This document shows positions 13,629-22,353 of a stretch of 48,561 nucleotides of DNA, piece after piece; position 1 is the first letter of the stretch; the number at the start of each line of letters is the position of its first letter. Position numbers and translations under genes: made by a program. Source of the DNA: Oscillospiraceae bacterium (GTDB taxonomy: Bacteria > Bacillota > Clostridia > Oscillospirales > Ruminococcaceae). The stretch covers positions 1 to 48,561 of the forward strand of contig JAFUAD010000058.1 in NCBI GenBank assembly GCA_017460835.1. The letters are read 5' to 3'. The notes under the pieces are model-generated. The model worked only from the letters and a program-made list of their open reading frames with translations, searched no databases and was not told where the DNA came from.

Positions 13629-15182
13629 ATGGCAAATCAACTGTGTATCGTGCTCGATTTCGGCGGGCAGTATAACCAGCTCATCGCGCGGCGCGTGCGC
13701 GAGTGCGGCGTTTACTGCGAGATCCGGCGCTATGACACCCCGCTCTCCGAGCTCCGGGCGCTGAACCCGACCGGCATCATCTTCACCGGCGGCCCCAACA
13801 GCGTGTATGACCCCGAATCGCCGCATATTGATCCCGCGTATTTCGAGCTCGGCATCCCGACGCTCGGCATCTGCTACGGCTGCCAGCTCATGGCCTATAC
13901 ACTGGGCGGCACGGTCGAAAGCTGCGAGAAATCCGAATACGGCAAAATTGAGATCACACACGGCGAAAAGAGCCTGCTCTTTGCCGGTGTCCCGGAGCGC
14001 AGCACCGTCTGGATGAGCCATACGGACTATGTCAGCCGCCTGCCGGAGGGCTTCCGCACAACTGCGTTTTCCGCCGACTGCCCCTGTGCAGCGTTTGAGG
14101 ACCCGGCACGGAAGCTCTATGCCGTGCAGTTCCATCCGGAGGTCACGCACAGCGTCTTCGGCAAGGAGATTCTGCACCATTTTCTCTATGTCGTATGCGG
14201 CTTTACCGGCGACTGGGTGATGCAGGATTTTATCGAGCAAACCGTATCGAAGCTGCGTCAGCAGATCGGCGACAAAAAGGTCATCCTCGGCCTCTCCGGC
14301 GGCGTGGACTCCTCCGTCGCCGCGGCACTGCTCAGCAAGGCGGTCGGAAAGCAGCTCACCTGCGTGTTTGTCGATCAGGGATTGATGCGCAAGGATGAGG
14401 GCGATTTCGTCGAGGAGACGTTTACCCGGCTGTTCGATATGAATTTTGTCCGCGTCAATGCACAGGCGCACTTCCTCGAAAAGCTCCGCGGCGTTACCGA
14501 CCCGGAGCAGAAGCGGAAGATCATCGGCACGGAATTCTATAATGTGTTCTGGGACAAGGTTCGCGAGACCGGCACCGACGGCTTTTTCGCGCAGGGCACG
14601 ATCTATCCGGACCGCATCGAGAGCGGCAAGGGCGATGAGGCAGGACACGGCAGCACCGCTGTCATCAAGACGCATCACAATATGGTGAAGATGCCCGATG
14701 ATATCGCCTTTGCTGGCACGATTGAGCCGCTCGCCGAGCTCTTTAAGGACGAGGTGCGGCGCGTCGGCGAGAAGCTCGGCATCCCGCGTGAGCTGGTCTG
14801 GCGTCAGCCCTTCCCGGGGCCGGGGCTCGGTATCCGGATCATCGGGGAGATTACCGAGGAGAAGGTGCGCATTTTGCAGGAGGCAGACGCCGTGTTCCGC
14901 GATGAAATCGAAAAGAGCGGCATTGCCGGCGAGCTGAGCCAGTATTTCGCCGTTCTGCCCGATGTGCATTCGGTCGGTGTCATGGGCGACCACAGAACCT
15001 ATGACCACCTGATCGCGATTCGCGCAGTCACGACCGACGATTTCATGACCGCCGACTGGGCGCGGATTCCCTATGACGTCCTCGCCCGCATCTCCAACCG
15101 CCTGTGCAATGAGGTCGCACATGTGAACCGCGTCGTGTTTGATATCACCTCCAAGCCCCCGGGGACGGTGGAGTGGGAATAA
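13629..15182 (+). CDS. guaA: GMP synthase (glutamine-hydrolysing)
   Basis: Converts XMP to GMP using glutamine and ATP, the last step of guanine nucleotide synthesis, in the cytoplasm. The 517-residue length is normal. The N-terminal class I amidotransferase domain has FTGGPNSVY, the nucleophile C82 in GICYGCQ and the His-Glu pair in VQFHPEVTH. The ATP pyrophosphatase domain has the PP-loop LGLSGGVDSSV. The C-terminal dimerisation domain ends with the near-invariant KPPGTVEWE. Its last codons (GAG TGG GAA TAA) form the attachment site for the islands that follow, and insertion has left the coding sequence intact. Ribosome site AAAGGAG. Confidence 0.97.
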   Translation: MANQLCIVLDFGGQYNQLIARRVRECGVYCEIRRYDTPLSELRALNPTGIIFTGGPNSVYDPESPHIDPAYFELGIPTLGICYGCQLMAYTLGGTVESCEKSEYGKIEITHGEKSLLFAGVPERSTVWMSHTDYVSRLPEGFRTTAFSADCPCAAFEDPARKLYAVQFHPEVTHSVFGKEILHHFLYVVCGFTGDWVMQDFIEQTVSKLRQQIGDKKVILGLSGGVDSSVAAALLSKAVGKQLTCVFVDQGLMRKDEGDFVEETFTRLFDMNFVRVNAQAHFLEKLRGVTDPEQKRKIIGTEFYNVFWDKVRETGTDGFFAQGTIYPDRIESGKGDEAGHGSTAVIKTHHNMVKMPDDIAFAGTIEPLAELFKDEVRRVGEKLGIPRELVWRQPFPGPGLGIRIIGEITEEKVRILQEADAVFRDEIEKSGIAGELSQYFAVLPDVHSVGVMGDHRTYDHLIAIRAVTTDDFMTADWARIPYDVLARISNRLCNEVAHVNRVVFDITSKPPGTVEWE

Positions 15183-15214
15183 TAAACAAGGCCTCGGAAA
15201 CAGCGTAAATACGC
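15170..15214 (+). repeat. left attachment site attL at the 3' end of guaA
   Basis: The core GGAGTGGGAATAAT (15170-15183) spans the guaA stop codon and recurs as GGAGTGGGAGTGAT (20186-20199) and GGAGTGGGAGTAAT (22043-22056). Exactly 28 bp from the GGGA of each copy starts a small palindrome, here GCGTAAATACGC at 15203-15214. The palindrome also sits inside a longer stem (15190-15227) that may double as the guaA terminator, although no T-tract follows. The 3' end of guaA is a known integration site for genomic islands. Confidence 0.75.
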
Positions 15215-15240
15215 CGTTTCCGAAGCCTTAAAATCTCAGT

Positions 15241-15257
15241 GATAACAATTTGATAAC
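15241..15257 (+). repeat. arm-type repeat, left end of island 1
   Basis: GATAAC-N5-GATAAC, two direct copies 11 bp apart (one helical turn), 66 bp from the att core. The same arrangement is at 20068-20084 near the right end of island 1, and a variant GGCAAC-N5-GGCAAC is at 20258-20274, 67 bp from the second core. Likely integrase arm-binding sites, by analogy with lambda-type systems. Confidence 0.5.
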
Positions 15258-15294
15258 AGGGAGCTAAGCGGAATTATTCTGCGTATCAAGTGGC

Positions 15295-15786
15295 TTATAA
15301 GTTACGCCATTCTTTCGCAGGTTCATGCTTTCCGCAGTCATCGGTCGTTTTCGGCCAGTTAAGCTTCCATTCTGTATATTCGGCCTTGCTGATCTTACCA
15401 TCAGCAAGGTCTTTTTTTCGTCTCTGCCACTCAGAAAGGAGGTCGGTCATCAGGATAGAGCCGAAAACAATGCCCTTGCGGTTATTGCCGTCCTCGTCCT
15501 CGCAGTCCTCAATGCTGATCGGGTAATGCTCGTCAAGCTCAAAGAGCATCATCATAACGCCCTCAGCTCCGAGTATCTCATCATCTGCAAGAAAACGAGA
15601 ATTCACGCCCAGCGCCTCGGCAAGCTGTTCGACAAGTGCCTGCTTGGGTGTGCGTGTGCCTGATTCATACTGTGCGATACGAACATCGGCGGACTTCTCG
15701 TCGAAGCCGACAGCCATACCGAGCTGTTTCTGCGTCATTCCACGAAAATCACGAATGCGGTGTATTTTATCTCCTATAATGCTCAT
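15295..15786 (-). CDS. XRE-family repressor
   Basis: A 163-residue regulator with an N-terminal HTH_3 domain (about residues 5-62: KIHRIRDFRGMTQKQLGMAV, then RIAQYESGTRTPKQALVEQL). The C-terminal part is acidic to basic with no recognised enzyme motif; it lacks an obvious LexA-type protease or an ImmA partner. It starts at ATG 15786 behind AAGGAG. Its promoter (15827-15855) diverges from that of the excisionase/integrase operon, and TTTGTTTAG sites lie in the spacers of both promoters. It is therefore probably the island's master repressor, equivalent to cI- or ImmR-type regulators. Matching palindromes beside the right attachment sites suggest it also binds there. Confidence 0.85.
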   Translation of the reverse strand: MSIIGDKIHRIRDFRGMTQKQLGMAVGFDEKSADVRIAQYESGTRTPKQALVEQLAEALGVNSRFLADDEILGAEGVMMMLFELDEHYPISIEDCEDEDGNNRKGIVFGSILMTDLLSEWQRRKKDLADGKISKAEYTEWKLNWPKTTDDCGKHEPAKEWRNL

Positions 15787-15826
15787 GGTGGTTCACTCCT
15801 TATAATATGGTTCTGTTGGTAAAATC

Positions 15827-15855
15827 ATTATAACATATTTGTTTAGGATAGTCAA
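15827..15855 (-). promoter_or_regulatory. repressor promoter with operator in the spacer
   Basis: Minus strand: TTGACT (15850-15855), 17-bp spacer, TATAAT (15827-15832). The spacer contains CTAAACAAAT, the complement of the TTTGTTTAG half-site at 15838-15846, so the repressor could control its own gene. Confidence 0.8.
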
Positions 15856-15861
15856 GGGATA

Positions 15862-15949
15862 CTAAACAAAAAAATTTAGAGAAATTTTCAAAAAGGGGTT
15901 GACAAAAGCAAATTTGTTTAGTATAATAGAATTAAGCAAAAATGTTTAG
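15862..15949 (+). promoter_or_regulatory. island operon promoter and repressor operators
   Basis: TTGACA (15899-15904), a 17-bp spacer and TATAAT (15922-15927), both consensus. Half-sites related to TTTGTTTAG lie at 15862-15870 (inverted, CTAAACAAA), 15909-15921 (CAAATTTGTTTAG, inside the spacer) and 15937-15949 (AAAATGTTTAG, one mismatch). Binding of the XRE protein to the central site would block RNA polymerase directly. Confidence 0.75.
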
Positions 15950-15992
15950 AAAGAGATTTTGCTAATACAGAACACAGAAAGGATTGACGTAC

Positions 15993-16196
15993 ATGTCAGA
16001 AAAGTTTATCCGTGCAGAGGAAGTCGCTGAGGTCATGGAGATCTCCGTTCCGTATGCGTACAAGATCATTCGCAAGCTCAATCAGGAGCTTTCCGACAAG
16101 GGCTACATCACCGTGACGGGCAGGGTGAACCGTGAGTACTTCAATGAGAGGGTGTACACGGTGAAAGCACCTGAAAAGAAAGAGGGTGAGGACTGA
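15993..16196 (+). CDS. excisionase-like HTH protein
   Basis: A 67-residue basic/acidic protein with a winged-helix/HTH of the excisionase kind at about residues 5-35 (FIRAEEVAEVMEISVPYAYK, then IIRKLN). It starts at ATG 15993, with AAAGGA 9 nt upstream, in preference to the upstream TTG. Its stop overlaps the integrase start (TGATG), the usual xis-int arrangement. It is likely to bend DNA at the attachment sites and direct excision, or to act as a transcription activator. It is the first gene behind the repressed promoter. Confidence 0.65.
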   Translation: MSEKFIRAEEVAEVMEISVPYAYKIIRKLNQELSDKGYITVTGRVNREYFNERVYTVKAPEKKEGED

Positions 16197-16750
16197 TGCC
16201 CGTTTACAAGGACAAAAACGGCACATGGTACGCAATGGTGCGTTTCGATGATTGGCAGGGGCAGCGCAAGCAGAAGTGCAAGCGTGGTTTTCAGACCAAG
16301 CGTGAAGCACAGGACTGGGAGCGCAGATTTATGCTCCAGACGAACAGCGACCTCGATATGCTGTTCAAGGATTTCTACAACCTGTATGAGCAGGACATGA
16401 AAGCCCGTTTGAAGCAGAACACATGGGAGCATAAGGCTTACATCATCAAGTCGAAGATACTGCCCTATTTCGGAGAAAAGCCGATGAAGGACATTCAGGC
16501 AAGGGACGTGCTGGCGTGGCAGAACGAGCTGCTGCGTCACCGTGACAAAAACGGCAAGCCCTATTCGGAGACTTACTTGAAGAACCTGCACAATCAGCTC
16601 TCCTGTATCTTCAATCACGCTGTCCGCTACTATGACCTTGGTGTAAACCCTGCCGCCAAAGCAGGGAGCATCGGTGTGAAGAATGCCAAGGAGATGAACT
16701 TCTGGACAAAGGACGAGTACGCTCGCATACTAATTCGCAGAAAGAAGTGA
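16196..16750 (+). pseudogene. int: tyrosine integrase, truncated before the catalytic domain
   Basis: The 184 residues comprise the N-terminal arm-binding domain (about 1-50: VYKDKNGTWYAMVRFDDWQG) and the SAM-like core-binding domain (about 55-165: MLFKDFYNLYEQDMKARL; PYSETYLKNLHNQLSCIFNHA), ending at FWTKDEYARIL. In intact relatives FWT-x-x-EY opens the catalytic domain with its R-H-R-Y residues. Here the frame ends nine residues later and a DUF262 gene begins 5 bp on. The catalytic half is lost, so the island cannot move without a recombinase acting in trans. It overlaps the excisionase-like gene by 1 bp. The truncated protein might still bind arm sites. Confidence 0.85.
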
Positions 16751-16754
16751 TATT

Positions 16755-17504
16755 ATGAAAATCGAACTGAGAGAGATTACCGTCCGTGACGTTGCAGAGG
16801 GCTATCAGGATAGTGCGGAAAAGGGCGTGACTGGATACGGTGGTAAGCTGAATATCCGTCCTGCCTTTCAGCGTGAGTTTGTGTATGGACAAAAGGAGCG
16901 TGATGCCGTTCTTGATACCGTCATGAAAGGCTTTCCGCTGAATGTCATGTACTGGTGTGCAACCGATGACGGCACATTTGAGCTTCTGGACGGGCAGCAG
17001 CGCACGATCAGCCTGTGTCAGTATGTGAGTGGAGATTTCTCCATCGGCAATCGCTATTTTCATAGTTTGACTGCAACGGAGCAGAAGCAGATTCTCGACT
17101 ACAAGCTCATGATCTATATCTGCACGGGCAATGACAAAGAAAAGCTCGACTGGTTCAGAACAATTAATATCGCTGGTGTACAGCTCTCTGATCAGGAACT
17201 TCGGAATGCAGTATACTCCGGCTCATGGGTGTCGGATGCAAAGAGGTATTTCAGCAAGAATGGCTGTGCTGCTGTCAAGATCGGAGATAAGCTCTTGTCG
17301 GGTAAGATGATTCGGCAGGAATACCTTGAAACAGCTATTGAGTGGATCGCACTGCCGGAGGGTAAATCAGTCGATCTCTATATGTCCGAGCATCAGCACG
17401 ACAGTACCGCTGCTCCGCTGTGGATGTATTTCCAGAGCGTCATTAACTGGGTGAATACCATTTTCCCGAAATGGCGTAAAGAGATGAAGGGACTGGGTTG
17501 GTGA
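16755..17504 (+). CDS. DUF262 domain protein (N-terminal part of a DUF262-HNH gene split by a stop)
   Basis: A 249-residue DUF262 (GmrS/ParB-like) domain with the diagnostic LLDGQQRTISLCQYV (about residues 77-91) and the preceding RPAFQREFVYG. DUF262 proteins are nucleotide-dependent restriction or anti-phage factors (GmrSD, BrxU-like) and usually carry an HNH nuclease domain C-terminally. Here the frame stops at TGA 17502-17504, just after KGLGW. The very next in-frame codons (RLYHEHKSD, then DPAALETRIAALM) continue the expected linker into the HNH domain at 17550-17849. One in-frame stop has therefore split a gene of about 364 codons. The gene is directly behind the truncated integrase and is probably island cargo. 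Confidence 0.8.
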   Translation: MKIELREITVRDVAEGYQDSAEKGVTGYGGKLNIRPAFQREFVYGQKERDAVLDTVMKGFPLNVMYWCATDDGTFELLDGQQRTISLCQYVSGDFSIGNRYFHSLTATEQKQILDYKLMIYICTGNDKEKLDWFRTINIAGVQLSDQELRNAVYSGSWVSDAKRYFSKNGCAAVKIGDKLLSGKMIRQEYLETAIEWIALPEGKSVDLYMSEHQHDSTAAPLWMYFQSVINWVNTIFPKWRKEMKGLGW

Positions 17505-17849
17505 AGGCTCTATCATGAGCATAAGAGCGATGCACTTGATCCTGCGGCATTGGAAACAAGAATCGCCGCTCTTATGGCAGACCGAGAAGTCACCAAGAAA
17601 AGCGGTGTATATGAGTATCTGCTGACAGGAAAGGAGAAATTCCTGAGCTTGCGTCAGTTTGATGATGAGGACACTCGTACTGCCTACGAACAGCAGCAGG
17701 GTATCTGCCCGATCTGCGGTCAGCATTTTGATTTTGAGAAGATGCACGCCGACCATATCACGCCTTGGCACGCTGGCGGTAAGACCGTTCCGGAGAATTT
17801 GCAGATGCTGTGCAGGGATTGTAATTTGAAGAAATCTGGGCAGGAATAA
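17505..17849 (+). pseudogene. HNH nuclease part of the split DUF262-HNH gene
   Basis: In the same frame as 16755-17504, separated only by the TGA. The first ATG-like start in it, a TTG at 17550, has no convincing ribosome site, supporting a single ancestral gene. It contains EKFLSLRQFDDEDTRTAYEQ, then CPICGQHF (zinc knuckle), HADHITPWHAGG (the H-H of HNH) and NLQMLCRDCN (second zinc knuckle and final Asn), i.e. a complete HNH active site. Without readthrough or internal initiation this nuclease would not be attached to its DUF262 regulator. A sequencing error at one base would give the same picture. Confidence 0.75.
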
Positions 17850-17871
17850 TAGAATATATAGTCAAATTCCC

Positions 17872-17900
17872 TTGAAATAATACGGGTATTGTGGTATAAT
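17872..17900 (+). promoter_or_regulatory. promoter of the two-gene AAA+ cassette
   Basis: TTGAAA (17872-17877), 17 bp, TATAAT (17895-17900). The predicted leader of about 55 nt runs to ATG 17961. It makes the cassette independent of the repressed integrase operon. Confidence 0.75.
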
Positions 17901-17960
17901 GTAAATATACTTGATAACTGTGCTGTTTCAGGGGATTTTTGTTTAATGGAGGGCTCACAT

Positions 17961-18788
17961 ATGAAAAATATGTTTAATATCTACTACATTAACTATGAAA
18001 AGGCAACTGAGATTTCTATGCTAATAGATAATAAAGTGCTTGAATCTATAACCAGAACCAAAGGAAGAGAAACTTCCGCTGAGGGAGAGGGAGATGTTTC
18101 CACCGATCCGTTAGCCAATATTCCTTTGATTGGAAAGCACGTTCCTTCTTTTTCTTTCGATGGGACTTTATCACATAGTAGGTCAAAGCAAGTTGAAGAT
18201 ACTATAAAGGTTGTAAGTACCAAATCAACTATGCTTCGTCCCTTATTTGAAAGAGCAACAGAGGTAAAAAAGCTATCTGATAGCAAAGTGGGAAATCTTA
18301 TAAAAATCAAAGGCGTTAATCTTTCAGTAGTTAATCTTTCTGATGTGCTTGCCATAAAAACACTTCTGAACGGCTTGATTAAACAGATTCCAGTTAACGA
18401 CGACAATCTTGATTTGACTTCTATCTTCCCTGTGTTATTTAAGGACTCTACATACTTAATTGAAGGCGAATTTAAACAGAAAGGTATTAAAGAAAAATTT
18501 ATTATAAAAATTCCGATGAATTCTGAAGCAGAATTGGAAAGCAACTATAGCGTATCAGATCTTGAAATAGGTGATGTTACGGTAATTGGAATTTATCGTG
18601 GAAAATTTGATAAAAAACTAATTTTAAAAAAATCCAATGTAATGATGGCTTTGAATAATACTACACCAATTGAAAGCAATGATGACGGTTCGGATATTGA
18701 AGATGGTAGCTCCGAACAGCCATCCGATGATTCTGGAAAAGTTCATTATATTGATGTAATATCAATTATTCAGGAACTGAATCTATAA
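17961..18788 (+). CDS. DUF6414-like protein of a two-gene AAA+ cassette
   Basis: A 275-residue soluble protein starting at ATG 17961, 7 nt after GGAGGG, in preference to the upstream TTG. The N-terminal YYINYEKATEISMLIDNKVL segment and the overall layout recall DUF6414 proteins, but the match is by impression only. The middle is Ser/Gly-rich (about 45-75), the C-terminal part is beta-rich (about 170-240), followed by an acidic Ser/Asp tail. No catalytic motif is visible. It lies 15 bp upstream of an AAA+ ATPase gene and shares its AT-rich composition, so the two probably act together. Their place in a guaA island next to a DUF262-HNH gene suggests a defence role (inference). Confidence 0.6.
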   Translation: MKNMFNIYYINYEKATEISMLIDNKVLESITRTKGRETSAEGEGDVSTDPLANIPLIGKHVPSFSFDGTLSHSRSKQVEDTIKVVSTKSTMLRPLFERATEVKKLSDSKVGNLIKIKGVNLSVVNLSDVLAIKTLLNGLIKQIPVNDDNLDLTSIFPVLFKDSTYLIEGEFKQKGIKEKFIIKIPMNSEAELESNYSVSDLEIGDVTVIGIYRGKFDKKLILKKSNVMMALNNTTPIESNDDGSDIEDGSSEQPSDDSGKVHYIDVISIIQELNL

Positions 18789-18803
18789 TAAAGGAATTTG
18801 ATT

Positions 18804-19976
18804 ATGGACAAAAAGATTATCTATGAATATGATAGAAGAAATCGTGAGTTATTTACTCAACAAATCGAAGATAATTCAGGTTGTATTGTAAATTGGGCGT
18901 TTTTTTCTAAAAATGACAGTAAGTTTCAGTTTCCACAAGACACTAAGTCACTTTATATAGACATTTCATCACTGTTTCATAGTGAAGATCGGGCGGATAT
19001 GATTATTCCATTGCTTGAAACACTTTTTAACGCAACTTCTGATGGCGCAGAGATACACTATATAGTTGAGAGCCTGTACGCAAAAACACTTTCAGATTAC
19101 CTGTATTATAGAGTAGAAGGAATACAATCACTTGAAGAAAAAATAGGGATAGAATTGGATGAGATCAACAATATTGTAGATATTGATAACGATAAGTTTA
19201 ATACTATAATGTCACATTTCTCAGATCAACTATTTGGCAACCAAATCTTTAAGGATAGATTTAAAGAAGAACTAATAAAATACCGTTTTTTTAATCGAAT
19301 CGGATGTCAGCCTATTTTTTCCGTCTTAATATGTGGAGCATCTGGAATAGGCAAAACTGAGGTAGCAAGGATCTTGCATAGAGAATTAAGTCCGAACGAA
19401 CCTGTTATAAAAATCAATTTTGGAAATTATAGTACGCAAGATGCATTAAATAGCTTGATAGGCAGTCCTCGCGGCTATATTGGTAGTAGTAAAGGTGAGT
19501 TGACGGACAAATTACAACACAGCAAAAGTAAAGTTATATTGATTGATGAATTTGAAAAAGCAGGAAAACCTGTATATAACTTTTTTCTTCAGATGTTGGA
19601 AGATGGAAAGTTTACAGATTCATTAGGTAGAGAATATGATTTGAACAAGTATATTATTGTTTTCACTTCAAATATGTCGAAAGAAAACGTCGGTCAGTAC
19701 ATTCCCCCAGAATTACGATCAAGATTTAGCTGCAAGTTTTCTTTTGGGCTTCTATCTAAAGCTGAAAAAGAAGCATATATAGAGTACAAGCTCAAACAAT
19801 ATTCAGAACAAATCATGAAATCTTACAAGAATATATGCGAAAGTGATTTGGAAAATGTAGTTTCTATTGATGTATCGAAATATCAAAATATTCGAGATAT
19901 AAACAATGAGATTATGAGACAACTCGCTCAATCCCTATATGATAAAATAGTTGATAATAATGGTGAAAGCTCTTGA
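18804..19976 (+). CDS. Clp-type AAA+ ATPase
   Basis: A 390-residue protein starting at ATG 18804 (AAGGA 8 nt upstream). Residues 1-165 are a novel helical region. Residues about 170-390 form one AAA+ domain of the ClpB-D2/ClpX kind: Walker A GASGIGKT (178-185), a pore-loop-like GYIG (224-227), Walker B VILIDEF (244-250), sensor 1 TSN (288-290) and an arginine-finger candidate R307 in PPELRSRF. The small lid domain appears short. There is no Clp N-domain, second ATPase module or peptidase-docking loop, so it is not a housekeeping Clp protein. It probably remodels or disassembles a complex together with its upstream partner. Codon and base use are markedly more AT-rich than in the flanking core genes. 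Confidence 0.8.
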   Translation: MDKKIIYEYDRRNRELFTQQIEDNSGCIVNWAFFSKNDSKFQFPQDTKSLYIDISSLFHSEDRADMIIPLLETLFNATSDGAEIHYIVESLYAKTLSDYLYYRVEGIQSLEEKIGIELDEINNIVDIDNDKFNTIMSHFSDQLFGNQIFKDRFKEELIKYRFFNRIGCQPIFSVLICGASGIGKTEVARILHRELSPNEPVIKINFGNYSTQDALNSLIGSPRGYIGSSKGELTDKLQHSKSKVILIDEFEKAGKPVYNFFLQMLEDGKFTDSLGREYDLNKYIIVFTSNMSKENVGQYIPPELRSRFSCKFSFGLLSKAEKEAYIEYKLKQYSEQIMKSYKNICESDLENVVSIDVSKYQNIRDINNEIMRQLAQSLYDKIVDNNGESS

Positions 19977-20001
19977 CAACCGCCCCAATCTGCGCTATAA
20001 T
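19973..20001 (+). promoter_or_regulatory. orphan promoter at the right end of island 1
   Basis: TTGACA (19973-19978), 17 bp, TATAAT (19996-20001), overlapping the end of the ATPase gene. A ribosome-site-like AAGGAG follows at 20009-20014, but no start codon or plausible ORF follows it. Transcription would run through the right attachment site. Confidence 0.65.
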
Positions 20002-20103
20002 ACCAAATAAGGAGCAAACCACCAGGCACACATTGTCTCCACAAGTCGCACGATTCGTTATCAAGGCGATAACAAATTGATAACGGGAGATCGGCGGTCG
20101 AGT

Positions 20104-20199
20104 ATTGTACAGAGCAGAATGTATAACTGAGATACCACAACGTAAATCGCCCAAACAAATTTGTTTAGTATTGGGTGAAATCTGGGGAGTGGGAGTGAT
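20104..20199 (+). repeat. right end of island 1 (attR) with operator palindrome
   Basis: A 96-bp sequence ending in the att core GGAGTGGGAGTGAT. It aligns without gaps to 21961-22056, with 77 of 96 positions identical by hand count. It contains AAACAAATTTGTTT (20153-20166), a full palindrome of the half-site found in the repressor's operators. The intervening 19977-20103 holds the orphan promoter and the GATAAC arm repeats at 20068-20084; no gene is seen. Confidence 0.75.
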
Positions 20200-20218
20200 G
20201 TACGAATCGAAAATAATC

Positions 20219-20274
20219 GCATAAATACGCTGTTTTAGCTGCTGTCATGATAACAGTGGCAACGATTTGGCAAC
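20219..20274 (+). repeat. left-end signature of island 2
   Basis: The palindrome GCATAAATACGC (20219-20230) starts exactly 28 bp after the GGGA of the core, as at guaA. GGCAAC-N5-GGCAAC (20258-20274), an 11-bp-period repeat, lies 67 bp after it. Both match the organisation of the island 1 left end. Confidence 0.6.
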
Positions 20275-20458
20275 AATTCTCGATATTTGCTATAGGTGTA
20301 GTTATTTTCTGTTGAAAAATAGAAAATATGTGAAATAATCATTATATTAAGCTCAGCGAAAGCGGAGGTTTATTCTACAATCATTTCTTTCGGGAGCGTG
20401 TTTTGATGACAATTAGTTATAAAAGCTACGGAAAGTTCTTAGGAACGGGGGTGATAAC

Positions 20459-21895
20459 ATGAAAAAGCATATCAGTATTGTTTTGGCAGGATCGCTGCTT
20501 TTGTGCGGATGCAGCTCCAGTGTCGTGTCTGACAAGGACAAGGCTTCAGGCACAAAAAATGCATCGGAGGAAAGCATCGTTTTTCAGGACGCGGAGTCCT
20601 TTGAAGCTTCGCTCAGCGGATGCAGCTCCAGTGATGTGTCTGACCAAGACAAGGCTTTAGGCACAAAAAATGCATCGGAGGAAAGCATCGTTTTTCAGGA
20701 CGCGGAGTCCTTTGAAGCTGCGCTCAACCGCGGAGAGGAGCTTGTCGGGGCGACAGTTACATTTGTTGTGAACGAGGTTCACCCCGATTCCTACTACGGC
20801 TACGATCTCTGGGCAGGAGAGCATCTGAACTTCATATTCAGCGAGGATCAGAATGTTCAAACAGGCGACAGCGTAACGGTAGAGGTGATAACAGTCAATA
20901 ACTCAGCAACCGGCTCCTGGATCATCAATGACCCGAACAACGAGGAACACAGCGTTGCAAATGTGGATTTCACCAAAAGCGTGACCTTGGACTGTATCAC
21001 ATTTATGGTAGATAAGGATTCGGCAGAAAAGTCTGTAGTAAACGGTACCATGTACACGAATGGTTCGTTTGCGGTCATCGTCACTAAGCCCGATAATTCT
21101 TTTGATCTCACCGATGATAGTTATGACCGGCTCGAGCTTGACGGCGTGTCTGCTGTACACTATGGCTATGAAGCCGATGGCAGCTTTATCGATTATCTGT
21201 TTGTTGAAGTTTCGGGGACTATGTATTCCTTTGCCTGCGTCAGCGCTGGATTGGCAGAAACGAACAAAGAAATGTTTGACAAGTTTGTTAGGACGATCAG
21301 TATCGACAGCGCAGCTGCGGTTCCTGGAAGATCATTTGAAAAGTTCACCCTGAGTGGCACAGGAAGCAAAGTCATCAGTGATATTACACTGCCGCCTGTA
21401 ATATGCATTGTCCACGCGGAGCACAGCGGAAGAAGCAATTTTATTGTTCATTATTATAGTGAGTCGGGCGACAGATCCTCGCTAGCCAATGAGATCGGAG
21501 CGGTAAACAGCTATCAGGTTTTCGATGCGCAAAAGAATAAAAGTGCTGACGGAGGTATGCTCGAGGTCAAGGCGGACGGAAGATGGAGCCTGACCTTCAT
21601 TCCGCTGTCGGAATATGTCAGCGGCGATGAAAAGACCTCGTTTTCTGGTTGCGGAAATTCCGTTATCGGCTGCTTCACAGCAACCGGGCTGACAGTATGC
21701 AAGGGCACACACAGCGGCAGTAGCAATTTCATTGTCAGGATATATGAGTATTCCGAAACCGGCGATAGGCTTACATCAGCCTTCAATGAGATAGGGTACT
21801 ACAACGGCGAAACCGTCCTACGCACTGAAGCAGGAAAGAAGTATTTCTTTAACGTATCAGCTGACGGAAGCTGGACGTTGGATATAGGGAGCTGA
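20459..21895 (+). CDS. secreted lipoprotein with internal duplications (cargo of island 2)
   Basis: A 478-residue lipoprotein: signal peptide 1-17 with lipobox L-C-G-C18. Directly after it, 37 residues beginning GCSSS-x-VSD are repeated almost exactly (DNA period 111 bp, 20505-20615 and 20616-20726), so the second copy repeats the CSSS of the mature N-terminus. The middle (about 160-285) has no recognised family. The C-terminal 190 residues contain two copies of a beta-rich domain marked by HSG-x-SNFIV, then YSE-[ST]-GDR, an NEIG and a DG-[RS]-W-[ST]-L strand. A GGGGGTGATAAC site precedes the ATG. It is the only gene of island 2. Outer-surface binding is likely; the ligand is unknown. Confidence 0.75.
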   Translation: MKKHISIVLAGSLLLCGCSSSVVSDKDKASGTKNASEESIVFQDAESFEASLSGCSSSDVSDQDKALGTKNASEESIVFQDAESFEAALNRGEELVGATVTFVVNEVHPDSYYGYDLWAGEHLNFIFSEDQNVQTGDSVTVEVITVNNSATGSWIINDPNNEEHSVANVDFTKSVTLDCITFMVDKDSAEKSVVNGTMYTNGSFAVIVTKPDNSFDLTDDSYDRLELDGVSAVHYGYEADGSFIDYLFVEVSGTMYSFACVSAGLAETNKEMFDKFVRTISIDSAAAVPGRSFEKFTLSGTGSKVISDITLPPVICIVHAEHSGRSNFIVHYYSESGDRSSLANEIGAVNSYQVFDAQKNKSADGGMLEVKADGRWSLTFIPLSEYVSGDEKTSFSGCGNSVIGCFTATGLTVCKGTHSGSSNFIVRIYEYSETGDRLTSAFNEIGYYNGETVLRTEAGKKYFFNVSADGSWTLDIGS

Positions 21896-21960
21896 TAAGC
21901 AGCTTTGCCCTCCCTCTCCTTTTTTCTAATAACACCAATAACATAGCATCAGCGGGCATT

Positions 21961-22056
21961 ATTATACAGAGCAAAATGGATAACTGAGATACCACAGCTC
22001 AAATCTACTAAACAAACTTGTTTAATGAAGGGCGCAATTTGAGGAGTGGGAGTAAT
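21961..22056 (+). repeat. right end of island 2 (second attR) with operator palindrome
   Basis: A 96-bp counterpart of 20104-20199, ending in GGAGTGGGAGTAAT (22043-22056) and containing TAAACAAACTTGTTTA (22009-22024). It is again followed at 28 bp by a palindrome, TCGTATTTACGA (22076-22087), and at 67 bp by GGCAAC (22115-22120). This indicates that a third island once continued to the right. Confidence 0.75.
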
Positions 22057-22353
22057 CTGCTCAACTAGAAATATCTCGTATTTACGAAAATTTCAGATTG
22101 AGCAAATGCCAAATGGCAACAGATCAAAATTGTTCATGGAACAATCAAGAGCGAACTGGTTTGCTGAAACCGGTTCGCTCTTTTTGTTTATTCTACTTTG
22201 AAGTATTGGGGGAAGTCTGCCATTGAGTAATAGTATGTTTCATGATCGCTGTCCAGAACGAAAAAGCCCTTGGCGGCTATGATTGCTCGTTCGGCGACAT
22301 GGCAAACGAACTGCGCCGGAAGATTTTGAAGTACGGTCGCCCGATCAAAAACA

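Follow-up and report, generated by a model that had tools for sequence, protein, structure and literature searches.

Genomic islands stacked at the guaA 3' end in a Ruminococcaceae genome point to a two-sided attachment site with a predicted regulator operator in its right arm

We analysed a 48 561 nt stretch of DNA from an Oscillospiraceae bacterium (contig JAFUAD010000058.1 of assembly GCA_017460835.1, positions 1 to 48 561; hereafter the window), in which repeated copies of the 3' end of guaA mark a stack of genomic islands. Comparison with related loci shows the predicted attachment site (att) of this island family to be two-sided with a fixed geometry: integrase (Int) arm repeats near -118, a palindrome usually centred at -26.5, the core, a dyad at +38.5 and further arm repeats near +71, all counted from the first base of the respective core. 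The right palindrome recurs between the island genes for a regulator (reg) and an excisionase-like protein (xis), and the regulator, Reg, is its likely binder. On balance, the probable explanation is that the window holds a tandem accretion of small guaA-targeting islands with a Tn916-type integrase, an ICEBs1-like excisionase and a divergent HTH_3 Reg, and that Reg would bind both the reg-xis region and the right-arm palindrome.

Results

The left half of the attachment site

The sequence GGAGTGGGAATAA is the guaA 3' end, the last codons and stop of which form the core. Further copies of this 13-mer, each changed at one or two bases, start at 20186 and 22043; taken as 14 bp, the core copies lie at 15170-15183, 20186-20199 and 22043-22056 and have 100, 86 and 93 % identity to the first. 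Cores 1 and 2 bound a unit that we call A, cores 2 and 3 bound unit B, and core 3 opens a remnant, C. An initial annotation of the window had reported that each copy is followed by a palindrome at a constant offset, and this was confirmed: the three 12 bp palindromes (15203-15214, 20219-20230 and 22076-22087) are centred at 15208.5, 20224.5 and 22081.5, in every case 38.5 bp from the core start. The GATAAC or GGCAAC repeats it described were likewise found, at +71 (15241, 15252), +72 (20258, 20269) and +72 (22115, single). Its spacings of 28 and 66-67 bp are indeed constant but hold only when counted from about the sixth core base; from the core start they become 33 and 71-72 bp. The pattern it took to define att is real, but represents the left half only, and the right half was absent from that account. 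Around +38.5, 12/14 flanking pairs are complementary in A, 7/14 in B and 8/14 in C. In A (15188-15229) and C (22058-22104) a larger inverted repeat has the 12-mer at its tip; in B, symmetry outside the 12-mer is weak.

Relatives were sampled as guaA loci and int loci (L numbers below). An exact 7/7 repeat of 11 bp period was present in 59/69 core-int pairs of relatives versus 0.5 % of shuffles, 55 of these at +68 to +73 and four further out; AT-rich left ends such as L088, L127 and L148 had no arms at +70. Mean dyad symmetry peaked at +38.5 in 50 non-redundant discovery left ends (0.467 vs a mean of 0.265 over centres) and again in 21 new hold-out left ends (0.480 vs 0.248). For the hold-out set, 80 relatives were retained out of 557 that had been confirmed. 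A left end was obtained from 45 of these, of which 18 had been seen before and 21 were new after collapsing; right cores numbered 12, nine of them new. As hold-out left ends were picked by exact arms, they test the dyad and not the arms. Near-identical ends were collapsed at 85 % (discovery) or 90 % (hold-out) for the symmetry tests and for the position tests with a position weight matrix (PWM) given below, whilst the arm-repeat count (69 pairs), operator density and arm-pair and class-2 counts were not de-duplicated. At least 7/14 complementary pairs near +38.5 were seen in 53/71 left ends, against 19 % of shuffles and 1/7 empty-looking loci, and the single best centre fell at 38.5-39.5 in only 20/50 discovery and 12/21 hold-out left ends. 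Loop centres of the folds in 66 ends likewise gave +38.5 to +39.5 for the dyad, with a median z of -1.6 and a z below -2 in one third of the ends. Three core matches that we judged not to represent left ends (L045 at 2447, L097 at 2442 and L153 at 1633) were dropped from the fold and symmetry counts.

Core-to-arm sequences had a median identity of just 0.35 among left ends, and it is therefore the position of the dyad that is conserved, not its sequence. No single sequence motif could be fixed for it, any pattern tried fitting at most 8/71 left ends, and the operator motif of the right arm was also rejected, because 3.5 kb of left ends yielded no match reaching 12.5 bits. The dyad may instead be only a terminator against guaA read-through with no part in the recombination complex, a reading to which we give slightly less than an even chance. 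Its composition (A-tract, short C/G stem, T-tract), the strong hairpins in A and several relatives, and guaA-strand terminator-like matches in 20/71 left ends (13 centred at +36 to +42) versus 4/100 shuffles are consistent with such a role, and a tested terminator lies near one end of Tn916 (PMC11658703; here and below, published systems are described from excerpts of the cited papers). However, 51/71 left ends lack a guaA-strand match at the -7 kcal/mol threshold, the reverse strand scores 29/71, and the centre stays fixed despite the low sequence identity.

The right half of the attachment site

Right ends carried arm repeats near -118 and a 16 bp palindrome, TAAACAAATTTGTTTA, usually centred at -26.5. 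Both arm pairs were called in 21/27 two-ended islands, and in 21/21 of these the left and right hexamers were the same. L083 and L114 each had one degraded right arm repeat, L129, L149 and L153 gave no left arm call, and L084 is probably a mosaic, its nearest right core having a GGCAAC repeat versus GATAAC at its left end. A PWM built from reg-xis sites only was applied to 24 discovery right ends, and in 19 of these its best match lay within 1 bp of -26.5. The match exceeded the 95 % background level in 17 and fell below it in two (L050 and L153); the remaining five ends comprised three class-2 ends (defined below) at -59.5 and two without a strong match (L147, L149). Amongst hold-out right ends the best match lay at -26.5 in 6/9, and L182 had neither motif nor arms. 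Two hold-out ends, L190 and L219, had the operator centre at -16.5, approximately one helical turn nearer the core. Mean right-end symmetry peaked at -26.5 in both the discovery and hold-out sets, and the dyads at -26.5 and +38.5 are equidistant, at 32.5 bp, from the core midpoint (+6, the central position of the 13 bp core). Conserved A positions at about -42, -52, -61 and -70 adjoin the operator and could be Xis sites. For right-end counts, core matches that we judged not to represent right ends were dropped (L099 twice, the second of L126), and the one-mismatch cores of L120 and L123 were kept as right ends by eye.

The right palindrome and the regulator

Across the 27 two-ended islands, operator matches of at least 12.5 bits numbered 49 in 16.5 kb of reg-xis region (2.98 per kb), 13 in 2.2 kb of right ends (6.02 per kb) and four in 253 kb elsewhere (0.02 per kb), using a PWM trained on some of the scanned reg-xis regions and on no right end. 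The right palindrome is the island's own reg-xis motif and is almost absent from other places. Three of the four reg-xis sites in the window reach 12.5 bits, and the third of the four (15905) sits between TTGACA and TATAAT. The motif of an island matched its own right end at 15/18 or better in 19/29 cases (L122, with int at a contig edge, left out), versus 5.1 % of 900 internal windows; other islands often match too, and this own-versus-other test is weak because class 1 shares one operator.

A second motif class, TTARCAN4TGCGAA, was found in six islands (L089, L104, the second of L107, L115, L116 and L117), occurring two to three times before int, once at the right end, centred at -59.5, and nowhere else in these loci. 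The five class-2 islands in the density scan had no class-1 match. Mean identity of the Reg N-terminus was 0.69 within class 1 and 0.45 between classes, with 21 class-specific columns, of which residues 32 and 35 are taken to lie in the presumed recognition helix. The corresponding values for Xis were 0.56 and 0.53.

Several observations weigh against the explanation favoured here. The four outlying matches are one, and Xis has seven class-specific columns as well. The class-2 islands form a tight clade, their Regs being 0.94 identical, and the covariation thus amounts to few independent events. L149 and L153 (2/27) had no operator match in the reg-xis region, right end or elsewhere, and the regulators of L147, L149 and L153 are absent or only distantly similar. 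L120 had a right-end match without a reg-xis match, whilst L050, L101, L103, L105, L114 and L126 had reg-xis matches with a right site below 12.5 bits. No class-2 site was found in L132, for which class 2 was expected from the Reg helix. Finally, the place of the motif is not universal, given class 2 at -59.5 and the two hold-out ends at -16.5. Separately, the reg-xis gap of L081 and L082 is about 400-600 bp longer than that of the window, possibly owing to extra coding sequence in the immunity region.

Should Reg bind both places, its presence would silence xis-int and would also block the part of the right arm on which Int and Xis have to come together, and its loss would open the promoter and att together. 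Whether Reg acts as such a lock on recombination we regard as evenly poised. The palindrome might alternatively be architectural, with Reg or another protein bending the right arm for the integration complex and no lock on excision, much as integration host factor (IHF) bends DNA at the H sites of lambda. The symmetry of the two dyads about the core midpoint fits this role, as do the alternative positions at -16.5 and -59.5, which are 10 and 33 bp off and thus near whole helical turns. We nonetheless consider it unlikely, as the motif in the right arm is that of the promoter operator, the left dyad lacks a common sequence, and an IHF-like role needs no repressor operator. Less likely again is that the palindrome is a site for Xis, which would bind att and the xis promoter in the manner of phage 186 Apl. 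Dual binding of att and promoter is published for excisionases (PMC7498355, PMC11963761) and the conserved A positions adjoin the operator, but the sites of recombination directionality factors (RDFs) are direct repeats (PMC7498355), whereas the site here is a palindrome. Moreover, the operator classes split by Reg rather than Xis identity, and L045/L091 have a 60 % identical Xis, yet no such motif precedes their xis. A role in regulating a promoter at the right end is very improbable: TATTGG follows the window operator as it does at the xis promoter copy, but a loose promoter-like match was present in the last 80 bp of only 6/24 right ends, on varying strands, and the palindrome was rejected as part of a promoter on that count.

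Arm hexamers and integrase residue 28

The arm hexamer associated most strongly with Int residue 28 amongst 51 non-identical Ints, relatedness being uncorrected. Following the arm hexamer nearly one to one, residue 28 was Q in 20/21 of the GGCAAC cases shown and C in 10/11 of the GATAAC cases shown, with M in 5/6 for GATACT, L in 4/5 for GATAGC and T in 2/3 for GACAAC. Residues 12, 14 and 15 ranked next; the four best columns lie in the arm domain and five of the best 14 outside it. Taken jointly, a fused immunity switch across a widespread family of Clostridia islands, with an operator in the attP right arm opposite the second dyad and Reg gating the synapse, plus a residue-28 arm code, is a tentative proposal that we would place a little short of even.

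Islands rather than host sequence

Of the guaA-type 3' ends that have a homologue of reg, xis or int no more than 3 kb away, 19/21 were followed by exact arms, part of this group having been fetched through its int. Among ends with no module homologue and 1 kb or more of available sequence the figure was 3/16 (Fisher p 2e-5). Five rows with less than 1 kb downstream were left out of the latter group, and two rows of the comparison, L029 and L088, are one place. The two module-bearing ends without exact arms were the G048 locus and L097. L031, L044 and L100, which have arms without a module, look like left-end scars, as do the degraded patterns of L032, L033, L038, L040, L043 and L049 when judged by eye.

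The initial annotation had named its own refutation, namely that the palindromes and arms would be host sequence if unoccupied guaA loci carried them. Arms were absent from all seven empty-looking loci (L020, L035, L036, L037, L039, L041 and L042), and L035 alone reached the dyad threshold (1/7). L035 may not be empty, because a second, one-mismatch core lies 1.3 kb further on. On the strength of these empty-looking loci, host sequence downstream of guaA was rejected as the origin of palindromes and arms, so the annotation was not refuted. Arms that are tied to the module and missing from such loci support its proposal that site-specific insertion took place repeatedly at the 3' end of guaA.

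An 8011 bp island was 95.3 % identical between two families with flanks at 75.6 %, and 99.3 % identical between two genomes of one family with flanks at 86.4 %; an 8854 bp island was 99.7 % identical with flanks at 75.4 %. Near-identical islands behind such diverged guaA-type genes (75-86 %) support the view that the family is mobile. Ints were also present behind a shorter paralogue matching the C-terminal part of guaA (L081, L082, L083, L087, L089 and L094). The closest int relatives among named contigs belonged to Ruminococcus, Oscillospiraceae and Clostridia metagenome-assembled genomes, several from herbivore gut. Stacks larger than that of the window, in which guaA-type genes are followed by two or three consecutive ints, were seen in G156:C15 (L107, L108), G033:C3 (L050, L086) and G392:C11 (L101). 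Related ints were also found reversed, beside a guaA end and pointing at guaA, in L152, L155, L159, L160, L048, L093 and L097.

State of the stack in the window

Features of the stack are listed in Table 1. Unit A has paired, matching ends and intact-looking Reg, Xis and operators, but its int is truncated, with homology stopping near residue 177 compared to about 365 aa in full-length relatives. The domains PF14657 and PF14659, those of Tn916-type tyrosine integrases, score above cut-off in the truncated protein, and the best solved relatives of the full-length int profile include the Int proteins 3nkh and 6emy. Unit B has end patterns on both sides, and the interval from core 2 to core 3 gave no match to int or xis; bounded by att sites but lacking an integrase, the unit resembles a cis-mobilizable element (CIME). 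Its ends are mismatched, and because GGCAAC left arms face degenerate AATAAC right arms, they derive from islands of different types, for which a deletion between stacked elements would account. Over 127 bp, the surroundings of cores 2 and 3 share 75 % identity, and the right ends of A and B are therefore homologous. The stack of islands that had been described thus stands with qualification, B having mismatched ends and no integrase and the third site being a left-end remnant rather than a complete island.

Table 1. Coordinates of features in the guaA island stack
Feature	Position	Strand	Note
guaA, target gene	13629..15182	+	Open reading frame (ORF); full-length homologues 79-89 % identical, same-genus and nearby genomes
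Core copy 1, attL of unit A	15170..15182	+	
Left dyad of A, centre +38.5	15188..15229	.	Tip 15203-15214
Left Int arm pair of A, GATAAC x2, 11 bp period	15241..15257	+	
Reg, HTH_3 regulator	15295..15786	-	PF01381, E 5e-8
Four Reg operator-like sites, reg-xis region	15830..15948	.	Starts 15830, 15863, 15905, 15933
Xis-like protein	15993..16196	+	NF047858 ICEBs1 excisionase, E 4.6e-15, 55 bits; cut-off 100
int, truncated	16196..16750	+	PF14657, PF14659; arm-binding and SAM-like domains only
Cargo, GmrSD_N and HNH restriction-like gene, two ORFs	16755..17849	+	PADLOC REase_II PDLC03418 spans both
Cargo, DUF6414 protein and Clp-like AAA ATPase	17961..19976	+	PADLOC candidate defence pair PDC-M37A/B
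Right Int arm pair of A, GATAAC x2, at -118	20068..20084	+	
Predicted Reg operator in right arm of A, centre -26.5	20152..20167	.	
Core copy 2, right end of A / left end of B	20186..20198	+	
Left dyad of B, centre +38.5	20219..20230	.	
Left arm pair of B, GGCAAC x2	20258..20274	+	
B cargo, lipoprotein-like ORF, 478 aa	20459..21895	+	No Pfam or NCBIfam family
Degenerate right arm repeats of B, AATAAC x2, 10 bp period	21928..21943	+	
Predicted Reg operator in right arm of B, centre -26.5	22009..22024	.	
Core copy 3, right end of B / left end of remnant C	22043..22055	+	
Left dyad of C, centre +38.5	22058..22104	.	Tip 22076-22087
C, left island end remnant	22114..22270	.	84.9 % identity over 159 bp to left end of L045 island
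Single remaining left arm of C, GGCAAC	22115..22120	+	

Neither a conjugation module nor a relaxase was recognized among the eight window ORFs of A and B scanned against Pfam, and a query with the int N-terminus at E 1e-10 found no second int copy in the genome, which is 88 % complete. Any movement of the stack would therefore probably need a helper, because int is truncated, B has no int, C is a remnant and the genome yielded no second int. That A, or A and B together, still works as a mobile element on its own is suggested by the intact-looking reg, xis, operators and cores and the matching arms of A, but the truncated int and the lack of a second copy make this scarcely credible. Amongst the cargo, the GmrSD/HNH restriction-like gene (16755-17849) looks broken, one PADLOC model extending over two ORFs, and the lipoprotein-like gene of B contains a 111 bp near-perfect tandem duplication (95 %) at 20505-20726. 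No tRNA, tmRNA or Rfam families were found in the window.

Discussion

In the attP of lambda, the core is followed by intervening protein sites and then by Int arm sites, with one long and one short arm. The att described here is similar in having a core flanked by intervening sites and then Int arm sites, and a long and a short arm; it differs in that no IHF-like site was identified and the intervening sites are palindromes, the right one operator-like. The integration site of ICEBs1 is a tRNA gene, unlike guaA here. The islands resemble ICEBs1 (PMC6957869) in that a helix-turn-helix (HTH) repressor would control xis, and the Xis proteins may be related, NF047858 scoring below cut-off. In ICEBs1, int is expressed with immR-immA, whereas the island int follows xis instead, and the excerpts of that paper mention no ImmR site in att (PMC6957869).

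Use of guaA as an island site is established, as the initial annotation had stated, and tandem accretion is also already in print (PMC4844618, PMC5357655, PMC4701971). Tn5801 and Tn5801-like islands sit at the guaA 3' end (PMC4844618), and the present islands share with Tn5801 the target gene end, a short direct-repeat core and, from their domain make-up, a Tn916-type integrase. Compared by description, Tn5801-like elements are tet(M) elements of about 25 kb and conjugative type, unlike A and B with no recognized conjugation gene; in addition, the window int adjoins reg-xis and reads into the island, unlike in Tn5801 (PMC4844618). Streptococcal integrative and mobilizable elements (IMEs) of integrase family Tyr_3 provide a further parallel in guaA target, small size and accretion at one site with decayed members (PMC5357655). 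IMEs, however, need a relaxase, which was not recognized in A or B, and the window int is incomplete; the streptococcal tandem accretions listed are at rpsI, rpmG and rplL, unlike the guaA stack here (PMC5357655). Phage 186 Apl and ICEMlSym RdfS are alike in that one protein acts on att and on an early or rdf promoter (PMC7498355, PMC11963761), but both are excisionases (RDFs) and Apl sites are direct repeats, whereas the candidate here is a repressor with a 16 bp palindrome.

Our searches of open-licence papers found neither a description of this att geometry nor any tyrosine-integrase att arm in which a repressor operator has a set position. A predicted repressor operator inside att thus seems to be a new variant, with phage 186 Apl as a partial precedent.

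For annotation, the geometry (arm -118, operator -26.5, dyad +38.5, arm +71) provides a rule for recognizing island ends, scars and mosaics, and helps where the 13 bp core alone is ambiguous. If Reg binds the att operator, control of excision would not be transcriptional only, and loss of the repressor would release the promoter and the attachment site in one step. Immunity could then extend to integration itself, and the repressor of a resident island could affect the att of a relative that arrives later. A residue-28 code, if true, would make arm specificity predictable, and the association between arm and Int residue suggests how stacked elements may avoid or allow cross-recombination.

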